DNA of 36,848 nt, from positions 1-36,848 of IMG/VR virus record IMGVR_UViG_3300031825_000400; one strand, given 5' to 3'. A model generated the notes under the pieces. The model made no database searches. It was not told where the DNA came from and saw only the letters and a list, made by a program, of their open reading frames with translations. This stretch comes from a virus. The position numbers were made by a program, and so were the translations under genes. Positions 4,913 through 36,848 of the stretch are shown here, piece after piece (within the stretch, counting starts at the first letter, position 1; each line of letters opens with the position of its first letter).

Positions 4913-4941
4913 CGAGCAGGGTCTCCATGAGAAAAGGGCCG

Positions 4942-4961
4942 ATGTCTGCCGTGGCAGACAT
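4942..4961. promoter_or_regulatory. Palindrome A, copy 2 (TGTCTGCC-GT-GGCAGACA)
   Basis: A perfect copy of palindrome A with flanking A/T pair, in the 85-bp gap between late genes at 4912 and 4998. It is followed 14 bp later by a degenerate palindrome B. Confidence 0.75.
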
Positions 4962-4974
4962 TCCGGCCCGGATT

Positions 4975-13934: not shown

Positions 13935-13961
13935 AGGAGCCCGCCAGTGTGGCGGGCTCCT
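13935..13961 (-). terminator. Hairpin between membrane protein and tail chaperone
   Basis: AGGAGCCCGCC and GGCGGGCTCCT form an 11-bp perfect stem with a 5-nt loop, followed on the minus strand by CTTTC. It is a probable partial terminator that lowers chaperone expression relative to the tail tube gene. Confidence 0.65.
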
Positions 13962-19950: not shown

Positions 19951-21372
19951 TTACCCTCCTGCCGGGTCCGCATTCGGATCGGCGCCCGGGTCCTGCCCCT
20001 TATCGAAGCCGTCCAGCAGGCCGGCGCCCAGCGCTTTGGCGTCCGCCTTCTCCTTGGCCCGCTTCGCCGCCTCGTCCGCCGGGTTGTAGCCACGCTTGGT
20101 CAGCAGGGTATCCGTCGACGCGCCCAACTGCTGATCGAGGAGCGCGGTCTCAGCATCGCTCTTCGGGTCGGAAGGCAGCAGGGCCGGCCAGTGGATCTTC
20201 ACCAGGTGGTTCGCGCTCTTCCGCCAGAGCTGCAGCAGCGCCACGGACACGTTGATCAGCAACTCCCCGTACAGGATCCGCTTGTCCCGGGTCTTCTCCA
20301 GGAGCGGCTGATAGAGGATCTGCAGCGCGAGTCCGGAGAGCTGGCCGAGATCGCTCACCTTCCCGGTCGCGACTTCCGGTATGCGCGAGATCTCGTGGAA
20401 GAGACTCTTCAGCTCTCGGTAGAACTCGATACTGGAGGCGAGGTCGCTCTGCATCTCCAGGTTCCAGACTTTTGCGTCCGGGTTGGCCAGCTTGATTACG
20501 CCGTCCGCGCCAATGTCGAACGGCTTCACCCCGGCCGAGGCCATCGCTCGCTGCCCCGGAGAGTTCGGCGCGATCAGTGGCGCGTTGATGCCGGTAACCA
20601 CCGTCTTCGGGTGGGCGTGGTGCCGGAGGATGCGCCCGGTGTTGCTCACGTTGAAGTTGAGGGCCTTGTTCAGGTCCACCAGCGCCGACTCCAGATCGCT
20701 GTACCCGTGGTAGGAGTTCGGCGCCGGGAGGTTCTGGCAGTGAAAGATCGGCGCCCAGTCATACGGCCAGGGGGTGGGCTCGCGGCGGACGATCCACTGC
20801 CCGCCGGTCGCACCTTCGTAATCGGTAATCGTCCAGCGCGTGGAGTCGGCGTCGTCTCGCTCGATCACCTGCCGCCGCACGACCGGCTTCCGGGTGGCGT
20901 GGCTGATGGTGTTCCACTGGTTGACGTAGGCCAACACCTCGGTGTAGTCGTCTTCGTCCGTGACCACCGTGATGTTGGCCGGGTCCAGGACCACCACCCG
21001 CGGGAAGGTGGAGGCGCTCTTCGCCGGCTTCAGCCGCAAGAACACATCGCCGCACACCCCGCCGTTGGTGCCGATGTCGAGGAGCGTGCTCATCAGCCGG
21101 TTGGAATCCCAGCACGCCTTCAGCCAGGTGTCGGCGTCGCTCTTCGCCTGGCCGTCCACCTCGAAGCTGATCCCGTCCGGGAAGAGGAAGCTGCGGCCCT
21201 TCTCGACCACCGTCTGCCCGAAGCCGAGGAGGATGTTATCGTCCGGCGTCCCGGGCTCCACTTTCAGCGGCTTCGGGAGCTGGTTCTCGTACGCCCGCCA
21301 CGCATTCATAATGCGGGTGCGGCGCTCGTGATCGGCCAGGTAGGCCTGTTCTAGGTAGAGTTGGTCGATCAT
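19951..21372 (-). CDS. Portal protein
   Basis: This 473-aa protein matches SPP1 gp6-like portals: 'RIMNAWRAYENQLPKPLKV' near the N-terminus, 'LDIGTNGGVCGDVFLRL', 'NPDAKVWNLEMQSDL' and the helical 'LSGLALQILYQPLLEKT' segment that forms the channel. It makes the dodecameric ring used for packaging and tail attachment. Its ATG overlaps the terminase stop (ATGA). The acidic, Gly/Pro-rich C-terminus is probably disordered. Confidence 0.9.
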   Translation of the reverse strand: MIDQLYLEQAYLADHERRTRIMNAWRAYENQLPKPLKVEPGTPDDNILLGFGQTVVEKGRSFLFPDGISFEVDGQAKSDADTWLKACWDSNRLMSTLLDIGTNGGVCGDVFLRLKPAKSASTFPRVVVLDPANITVVTDEDDYTEVLAYVNQWNTISHATRKPVVRRQVIERDDADSTRWTITDYEGATGGQWIVRREPTPWPYDWAPIFHCQNLPAPNSYHGYSDLESALVDLNKALNFNVSNTGRILRHHAHPKTVVTGINAPLIAPNSPGQRAMASAGVKPFDIGADGVIKLANPDAKVWNLEMQSDLASSIEFYRELKSLFHEISRIPEVATGKVSDLGQLSGLALQILYQPLLEKTRDKRILYGELLINVSVALLQLWRKSANHLVKIHWPALLPSDPKSDAETALLDQQLGASTDTLLTKRGYNPADEAAKRAKEKADAKALGAGLLDGFDKGQDPGADPNADPAGG

Positions 21373-22676
21373 GAGTAGATAGAGGGTCCGTAGCTGACTT
21401 CTTCCAGGCCGAGGGCGGGAGCCACGTAGCGCAGAGCATCGGCCAGGTGGAACTTGCTCTTGTCGGCGATCTCGTCCGTGGGCAGGCCCTGCTTGTCGAG
21501 CTTACGCTTGTAGTTGAGCAGGTCGCCGCGGAGCCCGCGGCAGCTCTCGAACACGTACAGCCGGCGCATCTTGAGCAGCGCGTAAACGCGATCAATCCCG
21601 GCTTCTACGTCCGCGACGTAGGGCTGCGCCATCGGCACACCGGCGGCGCCCCAATCCATCCGCTGTTGCGTCTCCGAGGGGCTGCCGCCGTACCAGCCGA
21701 TCACGTTTTCGGCCCCTGCAAGTTCCAGGGCAGCGCCCGCGTGCTCCGGAGAACTCTGGCCACCACCATGGCTCTCCCGGTAGGCATAGAACAGGCCGGT
21801 TTCGGGGTTCTCGGCGACCCACACGAGCGCCGTGTTCACCGCACCGAAGTCGGTGCCGACCTGGCGCGGCCAGTGCGGCGGAAGCGGGAAATCCTTCACC
21901 ACGTGACCGCCGATCTCGTCTATGTAGCAGTCGTAGATCGCGCCCGCGGGCCGGGTAAAGATCCCTCGATACATCATGTTGAAGCGCCAGGCGGGCATAC
22001 TCGCCTGGCGCTCTTCGAACTCCTCGCGGCTGAATGCAGGGTTCTCCGTGCTGTCGAACTGCACGATGTCTATGGTGGGGTCGAGGGCGACCCACTTGTC
22101 GTAGATGTTGACCTTCAGCCACCCCAGGTCATAGATTGTGGTCGCGCCCAGTGCCCGACCGCGAAACAGTGAGAGCCGGCGCAGGATCGCTTCCCAGATC
22201 TCCAGCGAGTATTCCCGCTGCCCGCACTCGTCCAGCAGCGCCGCCTTCGCAGTGGCGCTCTCCAGGTTGGACGGCGCCGACGCGGAGCAGAGCATGATCC
22301 GTCCCCACATCGGATCATCCGGGGTTTTCGCCCAAAACTTCCCGGTACTCGGATCCCGCAACTCGATCACGCGGGCCGACTTGTGGTAGCGCCCGATCTT
22401 CAGCACGTGCACGAAGACCGCAAGCATTTCCGGGAGCAGCTTCTTCTGGAAGAGCGCGAAGGAACTGGTCACGGCTAGGTAGTCGTTCAGTTCGCCGGGC
22501 TTGGCCGTACGCTGGATCTCGCGCCACAGCCACCACGGCCCCCAGCTCGTCTTTCCGCCCTGCGTGCCGGCCAAGACGAAGACAAAGCGCCGTTCCGAGT
22601 CCCAAGCTCGCTGCTGTCCGGAGTGGAAGGAGAGAACGAGCTTACCTCGCTCAACTCGCCAGAGGTTCTTTGCCAT
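21369..22676 (-). CDS. Terminase large subunit
   Basis: This 435-aa protein has the packaging ATPase motifs: Walker A 'GTQGGKT' (residues 37-43) and Walker B 'ALLDE' (D149, E150). The C-terminal RNase H-like nuclease is marked by 'VGTDFGAVNT' (D276) and a late 'FHLADALRYV' segment with another acidic residue. It cuts and pumps DNA into the head. It overlaps the small subunit by 26 nt and the portal by 4 nt. Confidence 0.94.
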   Translation of the reverse strand: MAKNLWRVERGKLVLSFHSGQQRAWDSERRFVFVLAGTQGGKTSWGPWWLWREIQRTAKPGELNDYLAVTSSFALFQKKLLPEMLAVFVHVLKIGRYHKSARVIELRDPSTGKFWAKTPDDPMWGRIMLCSASAPSNLESATAKAALLDECGQREYSLEIWEAILRRLSLFRGRALGATTIYDLGWLKVNIYDKWVALDPTIDIVQFDSTENPAFSREEFEERQASMPAWRFNMMYRGIFTRPAGAIYDCYIDEIGGHVVKDFPLPPHWPRQVGTDFGAVNTALVWVAENPETGLFYAYRESHGGGQSSPEHAGAALELAGAENVIGWYGGSPSETQQRMDWGAAGVPMAQPYVADVEAGIDRVYALLKMRRLYVFESCRGLRGDLLNYKRKLDKQGLPTDEIADKSKFHLADALRYVAPALGLEEVSYGPSIYS

Positions 22677-23199
22677 CAGCCGGGCTCATTCTCTCCACCA
22701 CCACTTCAGTGATAGGCAACTCCCCGCGCTGTCCGTCCGCGCCTTCATGAGTAACGCTGTCGCCCCACTCCTCGCGACGCCGTCTCTTGAGCCAGGACTC
22801 ACCCGCTCGCCAGTCGAACTCCCGGCGTCGGGTCACGGTGCGGGAGGTTACCTCTACCGCTACCGGCTCTTCCACCGTGCGCCCGTCCGGATGCCGCGTC
22901 TTCTTCATGCGGATCTCGGTCTTGGTGGTCTCGGAGATCTCCTCCACGTCCACGCCGAGGGCCGCGTCCTGAATGACCTTTGTAAACTGCAGCTCCACGT
23001 CGGCTTCGGCCTGGTGGACGGCCTCACGGAAGCCCCGGTAGGGACCGGTGAGTTCATCCTCGCCCCGCTGCATCCATTCCAGGTAGGTAGTGAACGAGAT
23101 CCCGCCCGCTTCGACCGACGCCTTACGGGTGGCGCCCAGACGCAGGGCGGAGACGATCCGCTCCTGCACTTTGGGGGTTAGCTTGGTCGGACGGGCCAT
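22651..23199 (-). CDS. Terminase small subunit (putative)
   Basis: This 182-aa protein lies directly upstream of the large subunit and starts 'MARPTKLTPKVQERIVSALR', followed by an HTH 'GATRKASVEAGGISFTTYLEWM', typical of small terminase subunits that recognise the packaging site. The middle is a helical oligomerisation region and the C-terminus is charged. The A/B palindrome pair lies just upstream of its start. Confidence 0.85.
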   Translation of the reverse strand: MARPTKLTPKVQERIVSALRLGATRKASVEAGGISFTTYLEWMQRGEDELTGPYRGFREAVHQAEADVELQFTKVIQDAALGVDVEEISETTKTEIRMKKTRHPDGRTVEEPVAVEVTSRTVTRRREFDWRAGESWLKRRRREEWGDSVTHEGADGQRGELPITEVVVERMSPADGKEPLAS

Positions 23200-23214
23200 C
23201 AGCGTAGGTTCCGG

Positions 23215-23232
23215 TGTCTGCCGTGGCAGACA
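23215..23232. promoter_or_regulatory. Palindrome A, copy 3 (TGTCTGCC-GT-GGCAGACA)
   Basis: A perfect copy 16 bp upstream of the small terminase start, in the gap following the 23248-23874 gene. It is paired with palindrome B at 23247-23266, 14-16 bp away. Confidence 0.75.
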
Positions 23233-23246
23233 TTTGAGCCAGGCGG

Positions 23247-23266
23247 TTTATCCCACGTGGGATAAA
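23247..23266. promoter_or_regulatory. Palindrome B, copy 4 (TTTATCCCACGTGGGATAAA)
   Basis: A perfect 20-bp palindrome, identical to the core at 17210-17229. Its right part encodes the last residues of the upstream gene and its left part contains that gene's stop codon. Confidence 0.75.
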
Positions 23267-23874
23267 GTCACGGCATCCAACAGCCAGTAGAGGAAGCGCT
23301 GCTGTCCGCTTGCTTTGCACGCCGCGTAGAACTGCAGCCAAGGTGTACCACCCCAGCCACCCCAGATGACCTGACACGCCGCCGAATTGGGGCCGACCAC
23401 CGCGGAACTACCGCCCGCGTGAATGTTTAGGCCGATGACGCCGCGCCGTACCAGCTGCTCGGGAACCGTGCCGTCCCGGATCCCGTCGCGATCGAGGTCG
23501 CGCCAGAAGGGGAACGAGGCAGCCTGCCGGAGCGCAGGGTGACCCTTGTGTGGGCCGAGTTCGAAAGCGTAGGGCCCACCGTTCAACAGGTGGGCGCAGC
23601 CGTCCGGATGCAGAGGCTTCTCGGTGTACCAGACGCCCGGATCGACGGAGCCCCGGAAGCTCTCCAGCCGCGTGCCGAAGAGGACCAGGCTGTCGTCGTA
23701 ATGGTCCGGCCGGTTGCCGTCGAGAGTGAGCGTGTCACCGCCGATGTCGCCACCCACCGGGACCGCGCCTCGAATGCCGAGAATATGAAGCTGCCCCGGT
23801 GCCGGCGCGCCATAGCCCGCCGCCCGGATCGCTTGGCGGATCAGGTCGTTGTTGAGGGTGATCGTACGGCGCAT
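23248..23874 (-). CDS. Putative peptidoglycan-active protein (YkuD-like C-terminus)
   Basis: This 208-aa protein ends in 'GLNIHAGGSS', 'SAACQVIWGGW' and 'RFLYWLLDA'. The spacing of His with a following S-x-x-C resembles the H...S(R/H)GC active site of YkuD-type L,D-transpeptidases and of phage wall hydrolase-like proteins; the usual Gly before Cys is Ala here. An N-terminal helix ('DLIRQAIRAAGYG') may bind the wall. It lies near a holin-like gene, so an endolysin role is possible. Activity is not established. Confidence 0.5.
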   Translation of the reverse strand: MRRTITLNNDLIRQAIRAAGYGAPAPGQLHILGIRGAVPVGGDIGGDTLTLDGNRPDHYDDSLVLFGTRLESFRGSVDPGVWYTEKPLHPDGCAHLLNGGPYAFELGPHKGHPALRQAASFPFWRDLDRDGIRDGTVPEQLVRRGVIGLNIHAGGSSAVVGPNSAACQVIWGGWGGTPWLQFYAACKASGQQRFLYWLLDAVTLSHVG

Positions 23875-23969
23875 GTAGCTGCTCCCATTACTGTTCGGGA
23901 CTAAGGGCCGAGGGTCGGCGAAGAAAAGGGACCCATCGTTCCGCGTTACTGATCGCAGGAGCGCCTACA

Positions 23970-24035
23970 ATGAGTTCACTGGTGAAGCTGTTGGATCGAC
24001 CAATTCCCACCCAGCGCGAAAGGGGCGGAGATTGA
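23970..24035 (+). CDS. 21-aa leader peptide ORF
   Basis: A short ORF (MSSLVKLLDRPIPTQRERGGD) has AGGAG 9 nt before its ATG. Its stop TGA overlaps the TTG start of the next gene (TTGA), so the two may be translationally coupled. It may be only a coupling leader. Confidence 0.4.
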   Translation: MSSLVKLLDRPIPTQRERGGD

Positions 24036-24328
24036 TCCCAACCGAGGAGATGGACGAGCTAGTCCTGACGATAAGTGCAGCGTTTGACCTGGCAGCCGAT
24101 GGCCGCCTAACCCGAGGCTACGCTCTCCTGCTCAAGGGCCTGGATGCGGCCAGCGTTTCGCGGGCGCCCTACGCAGCCGACCTCCGAGATGCCTGGCTTT
24201 TAGCCCTGCAGCGCTTCAAAGTGACATTTCCGAGCGAGTGGTATCAGCCAGATCCGAAACCGGTTAGAACACCAGGCGGCTGGCGTCAATCACCGGCGGC
24301 GGAGAACTCGCTCGGAAATAGCAGTTAA
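24032..24328 (+). CDS. Small plus-strand protein in the lysis region
   Basis: This 98-aa protein is read from a TTG overlapping the 21-aa ORF stop, with GGGGCGGAG just upstream; an ATG at 24050 is an alternative. The N-terminal half is helical ('DELVLTISAAFDLAADGRL' and 'RDAWLLALQRFKV'), and the tail is Pro/Ser-rich. The orientation, opposite to the lysis and late genes, marks it as an inserted, separately expressed (moron-like) gene. I do not recognise a family. Confidence 0.55.
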   Translation: MIPTEEMDELVLTISAAFDLAADGRLTRGYALLLKGLDAASVSRAPYAADLRDAWLLALQRFKVTFPSEWYQPDPKPVRTPGGWRQSPAAENSLGNSS

Positions 24329-24360
24329 GACTGGCTCGCGGCGTGGGCACCGTAAATGAG

Positions 24361-24609
24361 ATGAGTAGCCGTATTCACGACCCCTACCAAATGGCTGTCG
24401 AAATCTGTCGGACGTCACATGACCTCTGCGGGATTGCCCAGGCAGAGAGACGACGGGCAGCAGAGTTGCGCCAAGCGAGAGCAGAGCTTGGAAGGGAAGC
24501 TCAAGAGGTGTTCGGGCGGGTCGGCTCGCCCGAAGTGGCCACGTGTTTTCGCTGTTCCGGTGCACGTTCAAGAACAGCCGTGGGGCCGACTCCGCCCGAA
24601 CTTGGTTAG
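24361..24609 (+). CDS. Small plus-strand protein, unknown
   Basis: This 82-aa product starts at the ATG at 24361 (an upstream in-frame GTG at 24343 is an alternative); no clear ribosome site is visible. The middle is a charged helix ('QAERRRAAELRQARAELGRE') that could form a coiled coil, and one Cys pair 'CFRC' lies near the end. It ends 1 bp past the convergent stop of the minus-strand gene at 24606. Real or spurious status is uncertain. Confidence 0.4.
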   Translation: MSSRIHDPYQMAVEICRTSHDLCGIAQAERRRAAELRQARAELGREAQEVFGRVGSPEVATCFRCSGARSRTAVGPTPPELG

Positions 24610-25007
24610 CTGCCCGGAATGACGGCAGCCAGATCTCGCTTCACCTGCGCGGTCCCGGCGTCCCGCAACTCTCGCGCTGCCTTCAACGTCTCCGGTTTCG
24701 CGTTATCCGCCTTCGCGCGGACCACCGCTTCCTGCCGAGCCGCGTAGTTGATGACCGTCTGGCCCGCTGCCGCCAGCGCGAGAGCAATCTGCTCCGCCAC
24801 TGCATGTCCGGCCGCGATGGCCTGATCCGTGGTTAGGTTGGCGCCGTGCGCTTCCATCAGGCCGTCCACGGTCTCGCAGAGGCCTCGGCCCAACACCTTC
24901 CCGCCCGCCTCGGCCGCTTCATGATCGAGCGCGCCGCGCAGGGTCCGGAGCGCCTGGCCTTCCAGGTCACCGAGCCCGGCCTCTTCCAGCAAGTCTTTCA
25001 GTTTCAC
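24606..25007 (-). CDS. Lysis-region protein of unknown function
   Basis: This 133-aa protein is helical and alanine-rich and starts at a GTG overlapping the holin-like gene's stop (GTGA), so the two are coupled. Features include 'MKLKDLLEEAGLGDLEGQAL' and a long 'AEQIALALAAAGQTVINYAA' helix. No membrane helix or enzyme motif is evident. It may be a structural or lysis-accessory protein. Confidence 0.6.
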   Translation of the reverse strand: MKLKDLLEEAGLGDLEGQALRTLRGALDHEAAEAGGKVLGRGLCETVDGLMEAHGANLTTDQAIAAGHAVAEQIALALAAAGQTVINYAARQEAVVRAKADNAKPETLKAARELRDAGTAQVKRDLAAVIPGS

Positions 25008-25360
25008 AGTTGCTTCCCGCTTTCCGGCTGCATCTCCGGCAGCCCGCCCACCTTGAACCCTGCCAGTGTCAGCACGCGCTCTTGGAGTAGCGTCATCACC
25101 GAGGAGCCCGCGTAGCCCGCCACCATTCCCCAGGCCAGCGCGTTTTCCGGCCGCGTGTCGAAGTAGATCGCCAGGGCGCTACCCAGGAAGGGCGAGGAGA
25201 GGAAGCCCACGTCGATCCACTTGGAGACGCGTCCATCCTTCTCGCGCACGCTGTGGAGCCGGGGCAGCTCCAGCCGCCGGTTCTTGCTCATCAGACCGAT
25301 CACACCGCCAATGAAGCCCCAGGCAGCGTATTCGAAGATCTTCACATAAGCCGGGCTCAT
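25004..25360 (-). CDS. Holin-like membrane protein
   Basis: This protein of about 118 aa is assigned the ATG at 25360 (GGAG 9 nt upstream). It has an N-terminal membrane helix ('EYAAWGFIGGVIGLM'), a second hydrophobic stretch ('FLSSPFLGSALAIYF'), a third possible helix ('AWGMVAGYAGSSVMTLL'), basic residues between them and a polar C-terminus. This matches small phage holins. It is the first gene after the late promoter-terminator switch and is followed by the coupled 24606 gene and the YkuD-like gene. Confidence 0.65.
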   Translation of the reverse strand: MSPAYVKIFEYAAWGFIGGVIGLMSKNRRLELPRLHSVREKDGRVSKWIDVGFLSSPFLGSALAIYFDTRPENALAWGMVAGYAGSSVMTLLQERVLTLAGFKVGGLPEMQPESGKQL

Positions 25361-25385
25361 CGGCACGTACTCCAGAAACGACGAA

Positions 25386-25412
25386 CGGCCGGAGCGCGGA
25401 TGCTCACGGCCG
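25386..25412 (-). promoter_or_regulatory. Second hairpin in the late leader
   Basis: CGGCCGGAGC (25386-25395) pairs with GCTCACGGCCG (25402-25412), 10 bp with one bulged base. It follows the terminator on the minus strand and precedes the holin ribosome site, so the late leader carries two consecutive structures. Confidence 0.5.
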
Positions 25413-25416
25413 GTAC

Positions 25417-25448
25417 AACAAAAACGCCCCGCCTACAGAGGCGAGACG
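25417..25448 (-). terminator. Early-leader intrinsic terminator (late switch)
   Basis: On the minus strand CGTCTCGCC and GGCGGGGCG pair over 9 bp (two G-U pairs) with a 6-nt loop, followed by TTTTTGTTG. It lies only about 16 nt after the predicted start of the strong leftward promoter, so by default that promoter should make an RNA of roughly 48 nt. Confidence 0.8.
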
Positions 25449-25470
25449 CACTTTTGGTAAAGGACAGTCG

Positions 25471-25500
25471 ATTGTAGGCAGACGCGCCGCCGCTTGTCAA
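25471..25500 (-). promoter_or_regulatory. Strong sigma-70 leftward (late) promoter
   Basis: TTGACA (25500-25495) is a perfect -35 box and TACAAT (25476-25471) a 5/6 -10 box, separated by 18 bp. It points into the lysis and structural operon. Combined with the terminator just downstream it resembles lambda pR'-tR' (established by analogy). Confidence 0.85.
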
Positions 25501-25509
25501 CTGGCTATT

Positions 25510-25797
25510 TTAGGGGGCTGTTGCTGACCGAGCAGCTTCCACGCAGCGCCGCAGTTCCGACACCTGCTCGTGGATCTGCTCCCGCCACGCCGCGCGACGC
25601 ACGTTCTCGCGGATGCGCTTGCCGGCGTTGGATATGTGGCAGTTCACGGCGTTGCGCGAGATCCCCAGCCGGGCCGCGGTCTCGTCACGTGACCACCCGT
25701 CTCCATAGTGGGCCATCATTACCGAGCTCTCCATCCGGGTGAGCCCTGCTTCCAGGCAGAGCACTGCCAGGTTCCCGCGCTCATTACTCGGCGTCAT
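25510..25797 (-). CDS. Sigma-region-4-like HTH regulator (candidate late activator/antiterminator)
   Basis: This 95-aa protein matches sigma-70 region 4: 'LTRMESSVMMAHYGDGWSRDETAARLGISRNAVNCHISNAGKR' (broken by helices), with the turn 'TAARLGISRNAV' as recognition HTH. It starts at the ATG at 25797 with AAGGGG about 8 nt upstream, overlapping the previous gene by 14 nt, and ends 10 nt before the strong late promoter. Several phages use such small proteins (for example ArpU/RinA-like) to activate late genes; this is inference from position. Confidence 0.7.
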   Translation of the reverse strand: MTPSNERGNLAVLCLEAGLTRMESSVMMAHYGDGWSRDETAARLGISRNAVNCHISNAGKRIRENVRRAAWREQIHEQVSELRRCVEAARSATAP

Positions 25798-26266
25798 CGG
25801 CCTGCCCCTTCCGTGCCTGCCGCCGCAGCGCCTTACCCTGCTGGGCAGCCTCCACCGGTGACACCGCCCGCCAGCGCTTCTCTCCGAACGCCAGGTCCTC
25901 TGCAGTCAGGATCGTCGCGCGCGTGGCTACTGCCTGGGCGTACTCGGCCGTGTGCGGATGGTCCGGCACGAAGCCGATCTGCGGCGCTGCCGGCGCGTTG
26001 GGCCGCGGGCCGCGCATCACTGCCAGCAGTTCGCGGTAAGCCTGCTCTGCCGAAGTAGGCCAATCGTGCGCCGACAGTCGTTCCGCCGCTCGCATTAGCA
26101 CTTGCTGCACCTCGCCTGGCGACAGATCAGCGGAGCGCGCCAGGGTCTCCAGGGGCAGCCCATCCACCAGGAAGGCGCGGAGACACTGGCATTCGGTCTC
26201 GTGGACCGTGAGCCCTACCTCTGCCGCCAACCAGTCGAAGTCTTCTGCCAGCATCAACCCACGCAT
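25784..26266 (-). CDS. Second HTH regulator with sigma-region-4-like N-terminus
   Basis: This 160-aa protein is assigned the ATG at 26266, with GAGGTGA about 6 nt upstream; the longer frame to 26443 has no ribosome site and overlaps the primase end and palindrome C. Residues ~17-60 ('GLTVHETECQCLRAFLVDGL' and 'LARSADLSPGEVQQVLMRAAERL') look like a sigma-4 HTH. The remainder is helical and ends in a basic 'ALRRQARKGQ' tail. With its neighbour it forms an overlapping regulator pair immediately upstream of the late switch. Confidence 0.6.
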   Translation of the reverse strand: MRGLMLAEDFDWLAAEVGLTVHETECQCLRAFLVDGLPLETLARSADLSPGEVQQVLMRAAERLSAHDWPTSAEQAYRELLAVMRGPRPNAPAAPQIGFVPDHPHTAEYAQAVATRATILTAEDLAFGEKRWRAVSPVEAAQQGKALRRQARKGQADDAE

Positions 26267-26281
26267 CGCTTCACCTCGCTT

Positions 26282-26297
26282 TATGGCACGCGCCATA
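26282..26297. promoter_or_regulatory. Palindrome C, copy 2 (TATGGCACGCGCCATA)
   Basis: A 16-bp palindrome with one central mismatch relative to the copy at 1507-1524. It lies 16 bp upstream of the regulator ATG at 26266, a typical operator position. A second small palindrome TCACGCGCGTGA lies at 26337-26348. Confidence 0.6.
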
Positions 26298-26375
26298 GAA
26301 CGTAACTGTCCATTCAAACCTGCCGAGCGCTCACTTTCACGCGCGTGAGACGGTGCGGAAATTGCGGAAACAGCA

Positions 26376-29300
26376 TCAGAGCTGCCAGTGCCGTGGCCCT
26401 TCATCGTGGCCCTCTCCGGCATCGTCACGTGGGAAGAGGTCATCGAGCGCGCTGTAGTCGTCGTCCAGGTCGTCTAGACCGTCCGGGCCGTCCACGGAGG
26501 GTTGGGGAGGGTTAGGAGGGTTCCAGCCGCCGTTTACAGGTGCAGAAAAAACATGGTCTTCTGGATCGTCAGAGCCATCAGAAGCGGTATTTTTTTCGCT
26601 CCCCGTATCCGCTGAAAAACCCTCCCAACCCTCCTTAACCCTCCTACCCTCCTGATTAATGGGGATTTGACTGGTATCCGTGGCTACACCAGAGCAAGCA
26701 AGCGCGTCGTCTAGTAAGGAGGGTTGGGCCGGAGGGTTGGGAGTTGGCCGCGTAAACCCTCCTGACGCATCGCAGAGCTTAAGCTGATAGCGGTTGCCAT
26801 GATTTGACTTGCCTTCGTCCTTCAGAATGAGAAGGGTGAACGGCTGGTCGTTCTCATCGTGGAAGGTGTACCGGCGCTCTCGCTCTTTCTTGACGATGAA
26901 GCCCAACCGGGTCCGGCGGCTGCTCTCGTTGCCATTGCCAAGTTGCAGTTCCAGATCCTCATTCGCGACGATCTCTTCCCAAAGCTCTTTAGTGGTGACC
27001 AGGCGCTCACCGAACCTGCCCCACCACAAGCCGATGAAGGTCCGGATAGCGGCCCCTTCCGCATCCGCAGAGGCGCGCAGAGCATTAATGTTTTCGAGGA
27101 AGCCCGGAATGCCGGCGACCTTCAGCAGCCCGCCCATTGCCCGCGACCAGCCTTCATACATCCCGAGGGTGGGATGGTAGGAAAGCGGTTTACCGGCAGC
27201 GATCCAGGCCTGGCAAAGGGTCAGGATCGACGCCACCAGCTCCCCCCGGTGCTCCTGCGCCCAGCCTTTCAGGTCCTTGTGCCGGAAGCTCTCCGCGGGC
27301 CGGAGTTGGGGTTGATCCATCTTCGCGTCCATGCGGATGCGGGCAACACGGCGGGTCATTTCGTCCGAGAGGGTGATGTTGTTCCCGGTCCCGATCCAGC
27401 CGCACTTGACCGAGATCCGGGCCATTCTGGACGTGCAGAGGGCGCGGTCTTCCCACACACCGACCGTGAGCGCCAGGGCCAGTGAGCCGGAGTCTACGCG
27501 CTTCCGGATGTTGTCGATGACGACGATGGAAGGCCCCTCTATCAGCTTTGCCGTGATGCGCTTCCGCCATTCGTCGTCGCTTTCGCCCTCGGTCATCATC
27601 GCGACTTCGTGTCCCAAGATGATCTGGGAGAGCACGTCCACCAGGAGCGTGGCGCCAGTGCCGGGGCCGGGCTTATCCACCAGGTAAAGGGGTGTCGGGC
27701 CGACGATTAATTCCCGGATGAAAGGCAGCACCAGGAAAGAGACAGCGTGGGCGCGTTCGGCATCGGAGACGAAGGGGAAGTCTCCCAGCACTTCCACCAG
27801 GAGCATGTTCCGCGCGTGCTCGATCTCGGCTGCCGAGGGGTTGGCGGGGATCTCGGGGATTTCCAGCCCCGAGGCCGGCGCAAAGTAAGTGCGGGAGCTC
27901 GGATGATAGCCGGGCTCGGTCATCACCTTCCCGTCAGCCCCGAAGACCGGTGCTTCTACCAATCGATAAAGAGACGGGAACGGCAGCACCTCATGTGCCA
28001 GCAGATCCTCGCACACGTAGCCCGGTGGCAGGGCCGGCTTCTCGATGACCTCATCCTCGATCACCTGCGAGGTGTACCAGTTCGCCACTCGGGCCAGGAT
28101 GTAGCGCATCCGGTCTTCGGTGATCTCTTCCAGCTTGATCCGCTCTTCCCCGTCCCGAAAGAGGCGCTGCGGCACGCCGCTGCTAATGAAGAGAAACGGA
28201 GGCTCGTTCTGCGCGCGGATCGCGTCGAGCGCTTGCCCGGATACTACCGGGAGGTCCTGGTTGTTGGCTTCGATGCGCGGCAGATCGCCCCGCCCGGCTT
28301 CGTTCCGGATCGTGTCCCGGCGCTCGGCTGCCGCCTTGATCTTCTCGGCGCGCTGGCTCTGCTTCTGCGCCTTCGCCAGCTCTTTGAACGCGGTTTTCCC
28401 GATGAAGCCGGCCACCTTCAGCTTGTCGCCCCACAGGTCGATCAGATCCGGCGCCCGTGCCACCGACCGGGCCAACTGGCGGATGAGTTCCACCCGGGCG
28501 CCTTCGTCCGCTTCGACCGCCGCCGCGAAAATCTCACTCGGTTCGGCGCTGGGCGCGAGGCCGCTCCGGGTTAGTTGGGCCGTCAACCCAGAACGATCGA
28601 TACCCGTCGCCTTTCGGATCTCGTCCCAGAAGAACTGATCCAGTTCCGCGGCCCGTGTCGTCGGGGTAGTCTGGGCGAAGGCCGCAGCGCTGCGGAGGGT
28701 CTTCTCCAGGGTGGTGTCCGTCCATTCGCTATCGCCCCGCTGCCCCTGCACCAGCTCGCGGGCCAGGTGCCTGAAGGCATGCTCGCTCTGGGCAATGTGC
28801 CCCCTCCAGGCTTCGATACCCCGGGCGATCACGAATTCATCCGGGTCTTGACCGTCCGGGAGTTGCGGCGCCACGTAGGCGATGATACCTACTTCGTCCA
28901 GGCTCTTGATGCAGGAGCGGACCCCGGACTCTCCCCCTTTGTCCGGGTCCAGGCAGATGACCACCCGCTCAACGCCGTGCCGGGTGAGGCAGGCCGCCTG
29001 CTCACGCGAGAGCTGCGCCGCCACGCAAGCGATGACGTTGGTCTCGCCACCCGCTTGCAGGATCGCCGCATCCAGCACGCCTTCCACTAGGACCAGGCTC
29101 TTGTGATGAGCTTTGAGCGCGCGGTCGAGATAGAGCGGGCTTTGTTTGGTGCGCGGTCCGGGCAGGGCTACCGTCTTTGGGAGGAAGGGCTCAATCCACG
29201 GTCCCCGGGTTTCCTCTGGCGTGTCACTCCAGAGCTTCCCCAGGCGCTCGCGCTTCGCCAGCCAACCCGGATGCGACTGCATCAATGGCGGCTTCTGCTT

Positions 29301-29984
29301 GTGCCAGCGACCGTACAGGGTGAGCGGTCGCCCGCGTTCATCAAACCAGGGGATAATAACAAAGCCTTCCAGAGACTTCGCCGTGATCCCCATTTCCCGG
29401 GCTTCCTTGAGATCGTGGCCGGCCTGCTTGAGTGCGTGCTCGATCTCCTCTCGGTCCCAGAAGTAGCCGAAGCCGAGTTCATGCATCGCCGCTTCGCTGA
29501 AGCCCCGCTGCTCCATGAACTCACGCGCGGCGAATCCTACTTCATCCCAGAAGGAGCGTTGCGCGGCCTCGATCACTACGGTGAGCATGGCCCGCCGCGT
29601 CTCCCAGGCTTGCGCCTGCGCCCGCTGCTCGGCGGTCAACTCCCGCGTAGGCAGGTCCAGGTTTACCAGGTGCGCCAAGTCCCGCACGGCCTCCACGAAG
29701 GCGTCACCGCGGGGCGATGACTGCGGGGCATGCTTGAGCCAGTAGCGGTATTGGATGGCGCTTCCGCCGGCGCCACAAGCCGGACACCACCATTCGAGCG
29801 AGCGCGGGTTCACGACGAACGCCGTGCCGCTCTTGCTGTTGTGGTGCGGGCAGCCGCCGCGCCATTTATCCGCTTCCTTCTGGAATTGGTGCGAGGGGTG
29901 CGTGAAGACTTGCTCCGGGGTGAGCCGGGGCATAATCTCGCGGTCCAGGAAGTCGCCGAGGCTACCCGTCCACCCGGCACTCAC
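26376..29984 (-). CDS. Large primase-helicase fusion
   Basis: This 1202-aa protein starts with a CHC2-type zinc finger ('CPHH' near residue 41, 'CPAC' near 70), then a TOPRIM domain ('LVLVEGVLDAAIL' near 296, 'VVICLDPDKGGESGV' near 345). A linker with Lys/Glu-rich coils leads to a C-terminal AAA+/SF3-like ATPase ('KPGPGTGATLL' near 770, 'SIVVIDNI' near 820, 'RRVARIRM' near 877). The P-loop has Ala instead of the expected Lys. The final ~120 residues are Pro/Asp-rich. It primes and unwinds phage DNA. It overlaps the SF2 helicase gene by 4 nt. Confidence 0.88.
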   Translation of the reverse strand: MSAGWTGSLGDFLDREIMPRLTPEQVFTHPSHQFQKEADKWRGGCPHHNSKSGTAFVVNPRSLEWWCPACGAGGSAIQYRYWLKHAPQSSPRGDAFVEAVRDLAHLVNLDLPTRELTAEQRAQAQAWETRRAMLTVVIEAAQRSFWDEVGFAAREFMEQRGFSEAAMHELGFGYFWDREEIEHALKQAGHDLKEAREMGITAKSLEGFVIIPWFDERGRPLTLYGRWHKQKPPLMQSHPGWLAKRERLGKLWSDTPEETRGPWIEPFLPKTVALPGPRTKQSPLYLDRALKAHHKSLVLVEGVLDAAILQAGGETNVIACVAAQLSREQAACLTRHGVERVVICLDPDKGGESGVRSCIKSLDEVGIIAYVAPQLPDGQDPDEFVIARGIEAWRGHIAQSEHAFRHLARELVQGQRGDSEWTDTTLEKTLRSAAAFAQTTPTTRAAELDQFFWDEIRKATGIDRSGLTAQLTRSGLAPSAEPSEIFAAAVEADEGARVELIRQLARSVARAPDLIDLWGDKLKVAGFIGKTAFKELAKAQKQSQRAEKIKAAAERRDTIRNEAGRGDLPRIEANNQDLPVVSGQALDAIRAQNEPPFLFISSGVPQRLFRDGEERIKLEEITEDRMRYILARVANWYTSQVIEDEVIEKPALPPGYVCEDLLAHEVLPFPSLYRLVEAPVFGADGKVMTEPGYHPSSRTYFAPASGLEIPEIPANPSAAEIEHARNMLLVEVLGDFPFVSDAERAHAVSFLVLPFIRELIVGPTPLYLVDKPGPGTGATLLVDVLSQIILGHEVAMMTEGESDDEWRKRITAKLIEGPSIVVIDNIRKRVDSGSLALALTVGVWEDRALCTSRMARISVKCGWIGTGNNITLSDEMTRRVARIRMDAKMDQPQLRPAESFRHKDLKGWAQEHRGELVASILTLCQAWIAAGKPLSYHPTLGMYEGWSRAMGGLLKVAGIPGFLENINALRASADAEGAAIRTFIGLWWGRFGERLVTTKELWEEIVANEDLELQLGNGNESSRRTRLGFIVKKERERRYTFHDENDQPFTLLILKDEGKSNHGNRYQLKLCDASGGFTRPTPNPPAQPSLLDDALACSGVATDTSQIPINQEGRRVKEGWEGFSADTGSEKNTASDGSDDPEDHVFSAPVNGGWNPPNPPQPSVDGPDGLDDLDDDYSALDDLFPRDDAGEGHDEGPRHWQL
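26496..26762. repeat. GGAGGGTT iteron cluster (eight copies, both orientations)
   Basis: GGAGGGTT occurs at 26496, 26506, 26515, 26718 and 26731, and its complement AACCCTCC at 26628, 26638 and 26755. AT-rich stretches (for example 26540-26620 with long A and T runs) lie among them. Copies in both orientations within one gene suggest a DNA-level signal, possibly a replication origin (inference), not just a protein repeat. Confidence 0.6.
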
Positions 29985-31678
29985 AGGTCACCCCCGCGCC
30001 GCTGTCCGTGGAGTTGGTTGAGCAGGTCCGACGCCTCGCCGCAGTTAGCAAGCCGCTGAATGATGGCCGGCGCTACTCCGAACCGCTGGAGGGCCTTGGC
30101 CTGCTTATCGCTGACAGGGCGATCCCGCCAGGGCGCGTTTTGGTCGGCCAAACAGCCAGCGTCAGGCCAGCGGGCTAGGACTGACTGATCAGCCCAGAGA
30201 AGAGCGCCGACGAGGTTGTTGGCCAGGCGCCCCGGGCACACCGCGGCACCCTCTACCCGCCCGCCCATGACGTAAGCCAACTGCCACTGGACACCCGTAT
30301 GCCAGAGCATGGCTTCGCGCTCCATTCCCAACCGGGCGCGGTCCCGGCGCTCGGTCCCGCAGCGGACCCGGTATCCGTTCTCTCCCCGGCGTTCCCACGA
30401 GAGCCGACAGCCAGCCTGCCGCACTTCATCCGGTGGTCCCACGTTCGCGAGCAGGTCGATCTGCTCCAAGAGCGTGTCGAGGGTCTCCACGCAGGGCACC
30501 TCTGACGGGTCGATCTTCTCCAGGCGTTCGGCCAGCTGCTCCAGTTTCTCGGCGGCTTGGAGCAGAGACGTCCCCTGCAGATCGAGGTTTGCCGGTAAGC
30601 CGAGCATTGCCGGTACCGTGGCGAGGGAGTGCCGGCCGGTGTTGTCTACCACGTCGATCACCACCAGGTCGCTCTTACCGGGCACCGGGCAGTTGAAACC
30701 GCCGCGGGTGCCCCGGCCCACACATTGGACATAGAGCGCCCAACTCTGGGTAGGGCGGAGCATGACGACGCAGGACACCGGCGGATGGTCGAAACCCTCC
30801 GTCAGGATCTCCACGTTAACGAGAACCTGCGTCTCCCCGTTCTTGAAGCGAGCAATCACGGCCCGCCGCTCCTCCGGCTTCATCGTGCCGTCGATCCACT
30901 CCGCAGTGACCCCGATGTCCTGCCAGGCTTCGGCCGCGTGCTCCGCGTGCGCTACCGTGACGCAGAAGACGATGGTGGGGCGGTCGGCGGCAACTTCCTG
31001 CCAATGCCGCACCGCCGCGCGTGTGCGCTCGATCTCGTCTACGGCTGCCGCGAGCTCGCTCTTATTGAAGTCATCGCCCACTCGGTGCACGCGGGAGAGG
31101 TCCACCTGGGAGCGAACCCGGAAGCCGCGCACGTCCGACAACCAGCCGTCTTCAATGGCCTCCCGAATGCTGTAGGTGAAGACCTGTTCTTCGAAGATGT
31201 GACCAAGTGCAATGCCGTCCAGCCGCTTCGGCGTAGCCGTGCAGCCCACCAGGAACGGGCCGTGCTCTTCCCAGCATCCGAACCGCTCGAGCACACTGCG
31301 GAAGGACGGTGCCGGCGCGTGGTGTGCTTCGTCCACGATTACCAGGCGCGGGCGGAACCAGTCCAGCCGGTTACCCCGATAAAGGGTCTGGATACTGGCG
31401 CACACCACCTCAGCACGCCGGTCGGCCCATTGGTCGGCCTGCTCGATGTCCACCAGGAGCCCAGGGTTGAGTGACTGGAAGCGTTGCGCGGCCTGCTCCA
31501 GCAACTCGCCGCGATGGGCGAGCACCAGGGCCGGACCGCCGAGGGTGCGCTGAATGCCGCAGAAGATCTGCGTCTTACCGGTACCGGTGGGGCTGCAGTA
31601 AAGGACGCGACGGCGCCCCTGCAACCGGGCGGTGCGGACCGCCGTCACTGCGCGTTCTTGATAGGGTCGCAGCTTCAT
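29981..31678 (-). CDS. SF2 (DEAD/DEAH-type) DNA helicase
   Basis: This 565-aa protein (start at the second ATG, 31678) has the SF2 motifs: Walker A 'SPTGTGKTQ' (K36, T37), motif II 'VDEAH' (D117-H120), motif III 'CTATPKR', motif V 'LTEGFDHP' and motif VI 'VQCVGRGTRGG'. The C-terminal ~150 residues are a separate domain with 'ARWPDAGCLADQ'. It resembles Rad25/XPB-like and phage UvsW-like helicases that remodel branched DNA or act in replication. It is coupled to the primase-helicase by an ATGA overlap. Confidence 0.88.
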   Translation of the reverse strand: MKLRPYQERAVTAVRTARLQGRRRVLYCSPTGTGKTQIFCGIQRTLGGPALVLAHRGELLEQAAQRFQSLNPGLLVDIEQADQWADRRAEVVCASIQTLYRGNRLDWFRPRLVIVDEAHHAPAPSFRSVLERFGCWEEHGPFLVGCTATPKRLDGIALGHIFEEQVFTYSIREAIEDGWLSDVRGFRVRSQVDLSRVHRVGDDFNKSELAAAVDEIERTRAAVRHWQEVAADRPTIVFCVTVAHAEHAAEAWQDIGVTAEWIDGTMKPEERRAVIARFKNGETQVLVNVEILTEGFDHPPVSCVVMLRPTQSWALYVQCVGRGTRGGFNCPVPGKSDLVVIDVVDNTGRHSLATVPAMLGLPANLDLQGTSLLQAAEKLEQLAERLEKIDPSEVPCVETLDTLLEQIDLLANVGPPDEVRQAGCRLSWERRGENGYRVRCGTERRDRARLGMEREAMLWHTGVQWQLAYVMGGRVEGAAVCPGRLANNLVGALLWADQSVLARWPDAGCLADQNAPWRDRPVSDKQAKALQRFGVAPAIIQRLANCGEASDLLNQLHGQRRGGDL

Positions 31679-31743
31679 CAAGGGAGCTTCATCTCCGGTT
31701 CGTGCGAGAGCTATCCCTGTGAGCCCTCGCCTGCTTTGGCGGT

Positions 31744-31786: not shown

Positions 31787-32230
31787 CTACGCTTCCAGCG
31801 TGCGAGTTCGGAGGTGACCGCCGTGGGAAGTGTCCAGGCAGGCCACGCCCCTGCCTTCCCGGCGCAGACTGATCTCGCCGACCTCCGCTCCCGCGAATAA
31901 CTCCACCCGCGCGTGGTCGCTCATCTCGTCCTCCGGCTTGTTCGCGTGCACCGAGACGGGGCCGCCCTCGCCGTTGTCCACTAGCGACACCAGGTCTTTG
32001 CCGTGGGCGCTCTGCAGGTAGAGTGCGGTCCCCATTTCACGGTCAGCAGAGAGCTCGAAGGCTGGCTTTCCCTCGTAATCGAAGAGGCGCAGCACGGGTC
32101 CGGTCTTTCCGAGTTCCAGCGCCAACAGGACCGTGCCGTCCGGGTGCCGGATCTGGAATGGAGCCGTCACGAAGGAGATGGTCTCCTGTTGGGTGGGCGC
32201 TTCCAGGCTGCCGAGGAATTCAGGCTGCAT
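31787..32230 (-). CDS. Early protein of unknown function (beta-rich)
   Basis: This 147-aa protein is assigned the ATG at 32230, overlapping the upstream stop by 11 nt; residues further upstream in the frame are shadows of the neighbouring gene. It is rich in beta strands with pairs such as 'GPVLRLFDYEGKPAFELSA' and 'GEISLRREGRGVACL', perhaps a small beta-sandwich. No enzyme motif recognised. Confidence 0.6.
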   Translation of the reverse strand: MQPEFLGSLEAPTQQETISFVTAPFQIRHPDGTVLLALELGKTGPVLRLFDYEGKPAFELSADREMGTALYLQSAHGKDLVSLVDNGEGGPVSVHANKPEDEMSDHARVELFAGAEVGEISLRREGRGVACLDTSHGGHLRTRTLEA

Positions 32231-32921
32231 TGGCGAGGCCCTCCGCTTGCGCTTCCGTGGCTTCCACCCGCAAGCGCCAGTGCAGGCTGGAGCAATGCGG
32301 ATTGTCCAGCTTCTCCGGGTCATCCGCATCTCGCCCAACACAGAGCCCTTCACAGAAGGCGTCCACCAGGTAGGAGCAGAGCTGTAGGGCGGCGTCACGC
32401 TCGGCCGGCGTGGCGATGAAGCCGGCCAGCTGCGACCGTACCAAAGTGCCCAGCGCTCGGACCCGGACCACTACCGGGTCAAGCTCCCGGGCTGCCTGCA
32501 CCGTCAGCCTGTGCATTGCTTCGTGATCCGCTTCGACCAGGGGAGCTTTGTCGTAGTACGGATCCATCTGCGTTTGAGTGCGGAGTGCTCGCTGAATGCT
32601 GGCACTCTCCGCCTCGGTCAGCGGAGCTTCGGGGGCAGCCTCCGGGTAGAGGAAGAGGGTCAGTCCGCGGATGTTGATCAGGTAGGTGTCGGCCAGATCA
32701 CCAGTGCGGGCGCCTACCTGGTCCGGATACCGCGCCTCCAGTGCCTTTGCTTCGGCGAGGGTGGGGAAGTGATCCAAGCCAAGGGGGGCCAGCAGTGTTA
32801 GGGCTCGCGGGTCAGGGCTCCGGAACAATGCGTCCTGCGAAGCCGAAAAAATCCTCGAACCCGCCGTATCCTTTCGGGACTTGTCCCCGTTGGATACACT
32901 AGTAGAGGAAGGGTCTTTCAT
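32220..32921 (-). CDS. Early protein of unknown function (helical)
   Basis: This 233-aa protein has AAAGGA about 8 nt before its ATG. The N-terminal third is polar ('KDPSSTSVSNGDKSRKD'), followed by 'LINIRGLTLFLYPEAAPEAP' and then a helical region ('LTEAESASIQRAL', 'MHRLTVQAARELDPVVVRVR', 'ALQLCSYLVDAFCEGL'). No known family recognised. Its place just after the immunity genes suggests an early function. Confidence 0.6.
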   Translation of the reverse strand: MKDPSSTSVSNGDKSRKDTAGSRIFSASQDALFRSPDPRALTLLAPLGLDHFPTLAEAKALEARYPDQVGARTGDLADTYLINIRGLTLFLYPEAAPEAPLTEAESASIQRALRTQTQMDPYYDKAPLVEADHEAMHRLTVQAARELDPVVVRVRALGTLVRSQLAGFIATPAERDAALQLCSYLVDAFCEGLCVGRDADDPEKLDNPHCSSLHWRLRVEATEAQAEGLANAA

Positions 32922-33241: not shown

Positions 33242-33508
33242 TTACAGGCCCCTCAATCTCGCGCCTGCTGCTTCGAGGAGTACTCGGGCGCGAGACCTTG
33301 AAACCGCTAGCTCGCTTGTTGCTTTTTCAACCGCGATCTCTGCCAGTGCGGCGCGAAACCTCGGTTCAAAATCCGCCGGCATCCGGATGTCGCCGCCGAG
33401 GATTTTGGAAAGCCGCGACTTATGCATCCCCAGTCTGGTAGCCACCGTCTTCTGCCGAATGCCGGTGGCTGCCAGGAGCGCGCGCAGGTCAGATAGAGTT
33501 TGGTCCAT
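33242..33508 (-). CDS. Cro-like XRE-family HTH protein
   Basis: This 88-aa protein, started at the ATG at 33508, has a clear XRE HTH ('ALLAATGIRQKTVATRLGMHKSRLSKIL', residues ~10-37) followed by a short helical C-terminus. It is the first gene of the early operon, directly under the operator array, and lacks any cleavage domain, which fits a Cro-type lytic regulator. The longer frame to 33529 would overlap the first operator. Confidence 0.75.
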   Translation of the reverse strand: MDQTLSDLRALLAATGIRQKTVATRLGMHKSRLSKILGGDIRMPADFEPRFRAALAEIAVEKATSELAVSRSRARVLLEAAGARLRGL

Positions 33509-33518
33509 CGATCTCTCT

Positions 33519-33539
33519 GGTGGTGGCAATACTGTTACC
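33519..33539. promoter_or_regulatory. Operator O1
   Basis: A 21-bp degenerate inverted repeat starting GGTGGTG and ending GTTACC, related to the two operators at 33557 and 33617. It lies at the predicted early transcript start, so binding would block leftward initiation. Confidence 0.6.
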
Positions 33540-35219: not shown

Positions 35220-36848
35220 ATGCCGCCTGTCCCAAGAGTCGCTCTATCCGGGGTCGCCCTCTATTGCCGTGTCTCCGGCGACGAACAGCGAGAGCGCCAG
35301 ACCATCAAGACGCAGGTCGAATTCGGGCAGCGCATGGCCGACCTGCAGGGCGTCTCGTTGGTGGACGTTTTCGCTGATGACGGGGTCCGCGGCGTGGTGC
35401 CCTTCGGCGAGCGCCCGGAAGGTGCCCGCCTGCTGCGCGAGGCGCGCGCGGGCCGGGTGACCCAGGTTTGGCTGTACAAGCTGGACCGGCTCGGGCGCGC
35501 TATCCGGGTGATCCTGGCGGCCGTCGATCAACTGGAGGAAGCGGGCTGCACCGTGCGAAGCCTGACCGAGCCGTTCGACACCTCCACGCCCGCCGGCCGG
35601 TTCCAACTCACCATGATGGCCGGCGCGGCCGAGCTCGAGCGCGACAACATCGCCGATCGTACCCGTGAGGGGATCGAACGCGCGGCCCGGAATGGGGTCT
35701 GGCTGAGCAGTGAACGGCTCTACGGTTACCAGATCGCCGGGAAGGGCCGGCACGCCACGCTGGTGGTGGACGAGGTGGAAGCCGAGGTGGTGCGGTTAAT
35801 CTTCCGGCTCTACGTGGAGCAGGACCTCTCCTGCGAGTCCGTAGCCGATTACCTGAACGCGGCGGGGATACCCACGATGTACGCGGCCGGCTCTCGGATC
35901 GAGCGCACCAGCGGCCGACCCACCTCCGGCCGCTGGTCCGAGGGGCGCATTCACAACATGCTGAAGACGCGCGCCTACTGCGGGACGCACGAATGGGGCA
36001 AAGAGAGCAAGGCGCCGGGCCGCGAGATCATCCGCCGCCCCGTGCCGGCGCTGGTGGACGTGGAGATCTGGGAGCGCGCCCAAGAAGTGATGGACAAGAG
36101 GAGGACTTATGCCCTCCGGAGCAGTCGTCATTCGTACCTGCTCCGCGGGCTGGTCTGGTGCGGGTGCTGTGGCCGCCCCTACTACGGCTCCACCCTCGGC
36201 GGGTATCGCTACTACCGGTGCCAGGCGAAGCAGCCGGGCCGGTGCACCGAGCCGACGACGCTCTGCCCGTCGAAGTCACTTCCGGGCTCTGTCGAAGAGG
36301 AGATCTGGTCCGACATCGAGGGCTTCTTGCGCAATCCCGCTCCGGTGGTCGAGGAACTGCGCGGCATTCTGGCCGCGCAAGGTGAAACCCAGTTCGACCG
36401 CACGAAGGAGCTGCAGCAGATCGAGACCGCCGTTGCCGCCAACGCCGGCGAACGGGCGCGGGTCCTGACCATCTACCGCAAGGGCTGGATCAACGATGAC
36501 GACCTGGAGTCGCAGCTGGCCGCCATCGAGAAGGAAGAGAACGCCCTGGCGGTCCAGCGGGAGCACACCCGGCGCCAGGTGGAAGCCGTAACCGAAGCTC
36601 GGGAGCGGTTGCTCCAGGCCGGCGGGCTACTGCAGACACTCGGCACCAGGTTGGGCGAGGAGATCTCCTTCGAAGAGAAGCGCCACCTGGTGGAGCGCCT
36701 CGTAGAGCGGATCGACGTGGAGACCCACGGCACCGGCCGGGCTGCTAAAGCACTCGTCCGGGTACGGTATTGCTTCCAAGCTGCCCCGGAAACGGGTGCC
36801 AGTTGCTTTAGCGACAACTCACTGGTAGCGCGAAGTGGATCTCCCTGA
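35220..36848 (+). CDS. Large serine recombinase (phage integrase)
   Basis: This 542-aa protein has the N-terminal resolvase domain with the catalytic serine in 'ALYCRVSGDEQRERQ' (S19), the conserved 'LYKLDRLGRAIR' and 'AELERDNIADRTREGI' segments. The recombinase domain follows, then a zinc ribbon ('CGCCGRPYYGS' near 313, with later Cys) and a coiled-coil insertion ('RTKELQQIETAVAAN' onward). It integrates the phage at attP/attB and would excise it with a directionality factor. The window ends exactly at its stop codon. An imperfect inverted repeat (CCAGTTG...CAACTCACTGG) lies in its last ~50 bp. Confidence 0.95.
   Translation: MPPVPRVALSGVALYCRVSGDEQRERQTIKTQVEFGQRMADLQGVSLVDVFADDGVRGVVPFGERPEGARLLREARAGRVTQVWLYKLDRLGRAIRVILAAVDQLEEAGCTVRSLTEPFDTSTPAGRFQLTMMAGAAELERDNIADRTREGIERAARNGVWLSSERLYGYQIAGKGRHATLVVDEVEAEVVRLIFRLYVEQDLSCESVADYLNAAGIPTMYAAGSRIERTSGRPTSGRWSEGRIHNMLKTRAYCGTHEWGKESKAPGREIIRRPVPALVDVEIWERAQEVMDKRRTYALRSSRHSYLLRGLVWCGCCGRPYYGSTLGGYRYYRCQAKQPGRCTEPTTLCPSKSLPGSVEEEIWSDIEGFLRNPAPVVEELRGILAAQGETQFDRTKELQQIETAVAANAGERARVLTIYRKGWINDDDLESQLAAIEKEENALAVQREHTRRQVEAVTEARERLLQAGGLLQTLGTRLGEEISFEEKRHLVERLVERIDVETHGTGRAAKALVRVRYCFQAAPETGASCFSDNSLVARSGSP

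Follow-up and report, generated by a model that had tools for sequence, protein, structure and literature searches.

What could a near-consensus promoter be good for if the polymerase that leaves it meets an intrinsic terminator almost at once? The question is raised by a locus in the window, by which we mean the whole stretch of DNA analysed here, the 36,848 bases (G+C 65%) of virus record IMGVR_UViG_3300031825_000400. The minus strand carries most genes of the window, beginning with early/replication genes and regulators and continuing through lysis, packaging and structural genes to about 1.5 kb (Table 1); among the late genes that follow the portal gene are those for the scaffold, P22-type coat and tape measure proteins. 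On the opposite strand lies a gene for a serine recombinase, which suggests that the phage is temperate. Promoter and terminator sit precisely at the junction of the replication/regulator genes with the lysis/packaging genes. The most likely reading, and in our opinion probably the correct one, is that they form a late switch of the pR'-tR' type of a temperate phage, which is released by processive antitermination.

Table 1. Features of the window and of related IMG/VR loci (L numbers; positions are those of the respective locus).
Feature	Position	Strand	Remarks
Serine recombinase	35220-36848	plus	
HTH gene	33242-33529	minus	upstream of early genes
Helicase	29981-31681	minus	
Primase-like protein	26376-29984	minus	
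219-aa protein, possible partner	25784-26443	minus	weak sigma region 4-like HTH
95-aa sigma-70 region 4-like HTH protein, candidate antiterminator	25510-25797	minus	adjoins late promoter
-35 element TTGACA	25495-25500	minus	6 of 6 match
-10 element TACAAT	25471-25476	minus	5 of 6 match; spacer 18
Transcription start, predicted from spacing	25464-25465	minus	6-7 nt past -10
Intrinsic terminator hairpin	25424-25449	minus	11 pairs; -17.6 kcal/mol for hairpin
U-tract TTTTGTTG	25416-25423	minus	after last paired T of hairpin
Second hairpin, 5' leader	25386-25412	minus	-18.3 kcal/mol; no U-tract
Small membrane protein, holin-like by eye	25004-25366	minus	first gene past terminator
Terminator-like site, late operon, weaker	23931-23975	minus	intergenic; -13.7 kcal/mol
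Endolysin-like protein	23248-23874	minus	phrog_3000 E 4.5e-28; phrog_33083 endolysin E 3.5e-6
Small terminase	22651-23199	minus	phrog_4102 E 6.8e-19
Large terminase	21369-22676	minus	tblastn to annotated terminases; query for relatives
Portal	19951-21372	minus	
Terminator, late operon	13936-13960	minus	intergenic, wholly non-coding; -23.1 kcal/mol
Terminator, late operon	4936-4969	minus	intergenic, wholly non-coding; -24.1 kcal/mol
Very strong terminator	1465-1508	minus	-40.8 kcal/mol
L009, promoter	6746		gap 3 nt; next gene 6820-7563, amidase-like by eye
L070, promoter	2251		gap 21 nt
L090, promoter	49		gap 12 nt; near contig end
L030, weaker promoter	8285		gap 48 nt
Hairpins without U-tract	L106 1932-2000; L083 1728-1790; L027 6637-6700; L044 816-880		

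An earlier note on this DNA had described the two promoter elements, with an 18-bp spacer, as pointing into the lysis and structural genes. This description holds, on the minus strand, and the promoter matches the consensus hexamers at 11 of 12 positions overall. The -10 element and the hairpin are 21 nt apart, and the stem begins at about +16 from the predicted start, the distance that the note had given. The terminator and its U-run are likewise present, but the stem comprises 11 pairs (7 G-C, 3 G-U and 1 A-U, with a loop of 4 and TTTTTGTTG directly after it) instead of 9, and the short RNA that would result, with its 3' end near 25416, is computed at about 49-50 rather than about 48 nt. For this leader RNA, taken as 50 nt, the folding energy is -20.1 kcal/mol (z -3.9), which none of 200 shuffles equalled. 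The second hairpin that had been noted behind the first is equally unmatched in stability by 200 shuffles, but because it lacks a U-tract it is not a terminator. Beyond it lies the gene of the small membrane protein, whose ATG at 25360 has GGAG 9 nt upstream and whose product was without match in the family libraries searched.

How often would such an arrangement arise by chance? Promoters matching at least 11 of 12 positions occurred at 0.009 per strand in random sequence of the window's length and dinucleotide make-up (1853 strands), whereas two are present in the window, at 25500 and 33573. A terminator 8-60 nt past a promoter of at least 10/12 was found behind none of 339 simulated promoters (1522 strands), as compared to one case in the window; the pair scanner used for this count takes perfect stems with up to 3 G-U pairs, and with a maximum of 2 the same rule misses the window's own terminator. 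A simple scanner run over the whole region gives no excess of either element (terminators 5 versus 5.2 expected, promoters 2 versus 1.1 expected). What stands out is the strength of the promoter, its pairing with a terminator and the intergenic position of the two, not the number of sites.

The switch that we propose would work as follows. Host polymerase carrying the housekeeping sigma factor would start constitutively at 25500-25471, since a promoter so near to consensus needs no activator, and would halt at the terminator (25449-25416), so that the leader RNA is made and the late genes are barely expressed. Transcription of the leftward early operon would then yield a factor from its distal end, most likely the 95-aa protein, perhaps together with the product of 25784-26443. 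It would bind a site in the promoter DNA and, presumably with the aid of a pause element, engage the polymerase ahead of hairpin formation. The polymerase thus modified would read through the intergenic terminators of the late operon until it reaches the strong one at about 1.5 kb, which is likely the end of this operon. Having been made resistant once at the promoter, it would pass 25449-25424, 23975-23931, 13960-13936 and 4969-4936 in turn. When terminators of -13 kcal/mol or lower are counted, 5 of 9 on the transcribed strand are non-coding as against 3 of 12 on the other strand, with non-coding DNA making up 10.6% of positions 1-33600.

Late antitermination has been worked out in a few proteobacterial phages and elements, and the factors concerned (lambda Q, 21Q, 82Q, AlpA and GafZ) are largely non-homologous. 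In lambda, P22 and phi80 the order is the same as in the window, namely a sigma-70 promoter, a terminator and holin/lysis genes, the gene of a regulator lying immediately before them. The likeness to lambda pR'-tR' drawn by the earlier note therefore stands as regards anatomy; lambda is not the closest match, however, as P22 and phi80 fit better by the length of the gap between -10 element and hairpin, which is about 35 nt in P22, about 50 nt in phi80 and about 142 nt in lambda as compared to 21 nt here. Different from all three, the window contains no recognised Q homologue and no recognised pause element. Over the first transcribed bases the best hexamers match a -10 element at 3 of 6 positions (for example AAAAGT at about +10), a score also reached by AlpA's own pause element, CACGAT. 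Wider spacing is known as well: Pseudomonas phage YA3 is reported to have a Q gene and to carry its terminator at a distance of 224 nt from the late promoter (PMC7326022). AlpA, in turn, is reported to give read-through of terminators starting at +26 and +54 (PMC7969949).

But which protein would release the switch? No match to the Q families PF03589 (that of lambda Q), PF06530 (that of 21Q) and PF06323 was found at E 0.5, 0.1 or 0.01 in a Pfam scan of 25 window proteins, a selection from its ORFs that comprises all early and regulatory genes named, whereas lambda Q, run as a control, was found at once; the earlier statement that there is no recognised Q gene is thus borne out for this set. 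The 95-aa protein, whose ATG is preceded by GGAAGGGG, matches the sigma-70 region 4 families PF08281 (E 1.2e-6) and PF04545 (E 3.5e-6), both above cut-off, and among the PHROGs it matches sigma factors, the anti-termination Q-like family phrog_79 following only at E 0.1. The match of the 219-aa protein to PF04545 lies below cut-off (E 0.15). The fold of 21Q is reported to be in part that of sigma region 4 (PMC6606751), the likeness of lambda Q to 21Q and sigma region 4 is confined to the HTH (PMC7171158), and GafZ is predicted to carry a sigma-like HTH (PMC11150451). With the HTHs of these factors being sigma-like, a sigma region 4-like protein is a sensible candidate, which is no proof; a sigma-like HTH is common to many other proteins.

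The structure of the candidate adds little to this. Its single-sequence model has a pLDDT of 74, and Foldseek returned nothing for it at E 0.001; a second structural comparison listed sigma region 4 chains amid unrelated helical chains, and phmmer of the protein against the PDB gave nothing below E 0.04. The fold of AlpA is reported to resemble that of 21Q (PMC9371919), and the AlpA type is 21Q-like with two added helices; the window candidate has only 95 residues and no sequence match to either protein. For the 219-aa protein the model was too poor for use, and no relatives were found in the family libraries searched. Nor do the known binding sites recur: the direct-repeat site TGAGCA of 21Q and the AlpA site GGGACG are both absent from the 18-bp spacer AGCGGCGGCGCGTCTGCC. 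The longest repeat in the promoter is GCGGCG, an overlapping direct repeat located in the spacer, and a perfect inverted repeat of at least 5 was not found within 25510-25455. The gene transfer agent of Caulobacter, with GafZ and GafY, resembles the window in combining a phage-like late cluster with two neighbouring regulator genes. It is reported to differ in that GafZ has as its site a near-perfect palindrome placed between the -35 and -10 elements, of which none was found here, that its terminator lies past the first gene and that GafY activates the promoter. We regard the 95-aa protein as the best candidate for the antitermination factor, with a chance of being so that falls a little short of even. 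It is a good deal more speculative, and on balance rather doubtful, that this protein founds a new antiterminator family consisting of little more than a sigma region 4-like DNA-binding and polymerase-docking domain and that promoter-proximal termination is at the same time a general late timer in uncultured temperate phages across a broad clade that lacks any known Q.

Does the layout recur in other phages? Sixty-six IMG/VR loci were collected by alignment of the large terminase and 36 by a scan with the terminase of L009, many of them on the same contigs. A promoter followed by a terminator ahead of lysis/packaging genes is found in L009, L070 and L090 (perfect -35) and in L030 (weaker), all of them distantly related, and because their leader sequences are unlike each other it is the layout, not the sequence, that is shared. 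Strong late-side promoters with an immediate hairpin that lacks a U-tract occur in L027/L028, L044, L083 and L106. Between L009 and L106, whose endolysins are 80% identical, the position of the leader hairpin is kept and the U-tract is lost in L106; the divergence of their DNA is too great for covarying pairs to be counted. Most other loci do not have the layout, among them the nearest terminase relative, L008, which has a promoter of only 9/12, no terminator at this place and an HTH protein of no demonstrable kinship to that of the window; a search with the small terminase yielded three weak loci, all without it. Relatives of the immediate region, which would allow a covariation test at the window's own site, were not found: blastn of 23000-27000 gave none, pattern scans of IMG/VR confirmed none for the 95-aa, the holin-like or the primase protein, and tblastn in phage records found none for the 95-aa or holin-like protein and only distant partial matches for the primase. 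The terminase relatives in MAG contigs bear labels from several phyla, which may reflect misbinning. In L070 the promoter is immediately preceded by a 667-aa ORF (156-2159) whose product, judged by eye, resembles a protein carrying an intein-like insert.

To put numbers on the recurrence we used an energy-based scan, as the pair scanner allowing 3 G-U pairs misses the terminators of L009 and L070, the stems of which are interrupted or outside its rule; the further layout carriers which it proposed (L027/L028, L035 and L072) were not convincing. Under a loose rule, 10 of 43 late-side promoters are followed by a terminator as against 10 of 143 others and 5.4% of random positions. In the later counts loci with near-identical leaders were entered once. 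For promoters of at least 10/12 with a terminator starting within 50 nt the numbers are 7/36 late-side and 7/134 elsewhere (p 0.012), and for strong promoters (perfect -35 or 11/12) 6/17 and 2/46 (p 0.0035), the 6 including L057 and L059. These two were then dropped, as their promoters are directed away from the leftward genes between which they lie, which leaves 4/15 versus 2/46 (p 0.028), or 3/14 without the window (p 0.078); the orientation check behind the 4/15 extended gene by gene to only some of the 15 and to none of the 46. The enrichment of terminators behind strong late promoters is thus modest, and as the rule was shaped after the examples were known we take it as an indication, not as proof. 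The sites in L057 (5278-5350) and L059 (3690-3770), each a strong promoter and then a terminator in a gap between leftward genes, are possible short antisense RNA genes, a layout presumably comparable with that of the lambda oop RNA.

Could the terminator merely end the early operon, with the promoter lying before it by accident and leakage sufficing for late expression, so that the switch is passive and does without an antiterminator? The upstream gene does end at 25510, about 60 nt ahead of the hairpin, 3 of the 11 stem pairs are G-U, and most relatives are without such a terminator. However, an 11/12 promoter placed upstream of a terminator would be senseless for plain late expression, and the same order is seen again in L009, L070 and L090; we hold this explanation to be unlikely. 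Even less can be said for a 5' stabiliser or pause hairpin of the late mRNA, in which the U-tract would be incidental and timing would come from an HTH-protein activator at the promoter. Sigma region 4-like HTH proteins can also be activators, and the late promoters of L027, L044, L083 and L106 do have hairpins without a U-tract. Yet the hairpin of the window has one, a promoter near consensus leaves little for an activator to do, and models of the late activators RinA and ArpU were absent from the 19 NCBIfam families matched at E 0.5, all of which makes this reading distinctly improbable.

The remaining alternatives concern the RNA itself. Transcripts of the early operon would contain GCCTACA (25480-25474) from the -10 region, whose complement TGTAGGC (25438-25432) lies in a terminator arm; pairing of the two would oppose the terminator, and transcripts from the late promoter would be without GCCTACA. 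For an RNA spanning 25530-25410 both folds, terminator and alternative, indeed come to -42.7 kcal/mol, with pair probabilities of 0.60 and 0.21, respectively. Against such an RNA-based choice, a complementarity of 7 bases was reached by 162 of 5000 shuffles, the arms of the terminator are nearer to each other and form first, and the mechanism would not open the late promoter, so that it appears very unlikely. The earlier note had also considered that the tiny RNA may act in trans. A precedent is StxS, a small RNA from pR'-tR' of Shiga toxin phages, which resembles the window RNA in being a short transcript between a late promoter and its terminator (PMC7873438), and a constitutive promoter would make such an RNA in the lysogen. 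StxS is bound by Hfq, processed by RNase E and has known targets, whereas the RNA of the window is predicted from sequence. The latter would moreover be nearly all terminator hairpin with about 15 nt single-stranded, and it has neither an Rfam match nor relatives that show conservation. Beyond the precedent we found nothing in support of a role in trans, and we give it hardly any credit.

We therefore return to the late switch released by antitermination as the preferred reading. If it is true, a compact switch with a 95-aa candidate factor in an uncultured phage without recognisable Q, together with a layout that is repeated in related contigs, would suggest that the antitermination circuit re-evolves with new proteins and is detectable from the anatomy of the DNA alone. 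Our searches of the open-licence literature brought up no paper on the phage of the window or on such a switch in its terminase clade.

Two further sites on the minus strand belong to the early region. The other near-consensus promoter of the window, GTGACA-17-TATAAT within 33584-33545, precedes the HTH gene 33242-33529 and overlaps the palindrome GGTCGGTGGTGATAGTGTCACCACCGATT, which is likely an operator of the immunity region. Finally, the early operon itself contains a strong terminator (31774-31753; 9 pairs, 8 of them G-C), placed between 31787-32398 and the gene of the helicase, and by analogy with lambda tR1 and N this operon may require read-through too.
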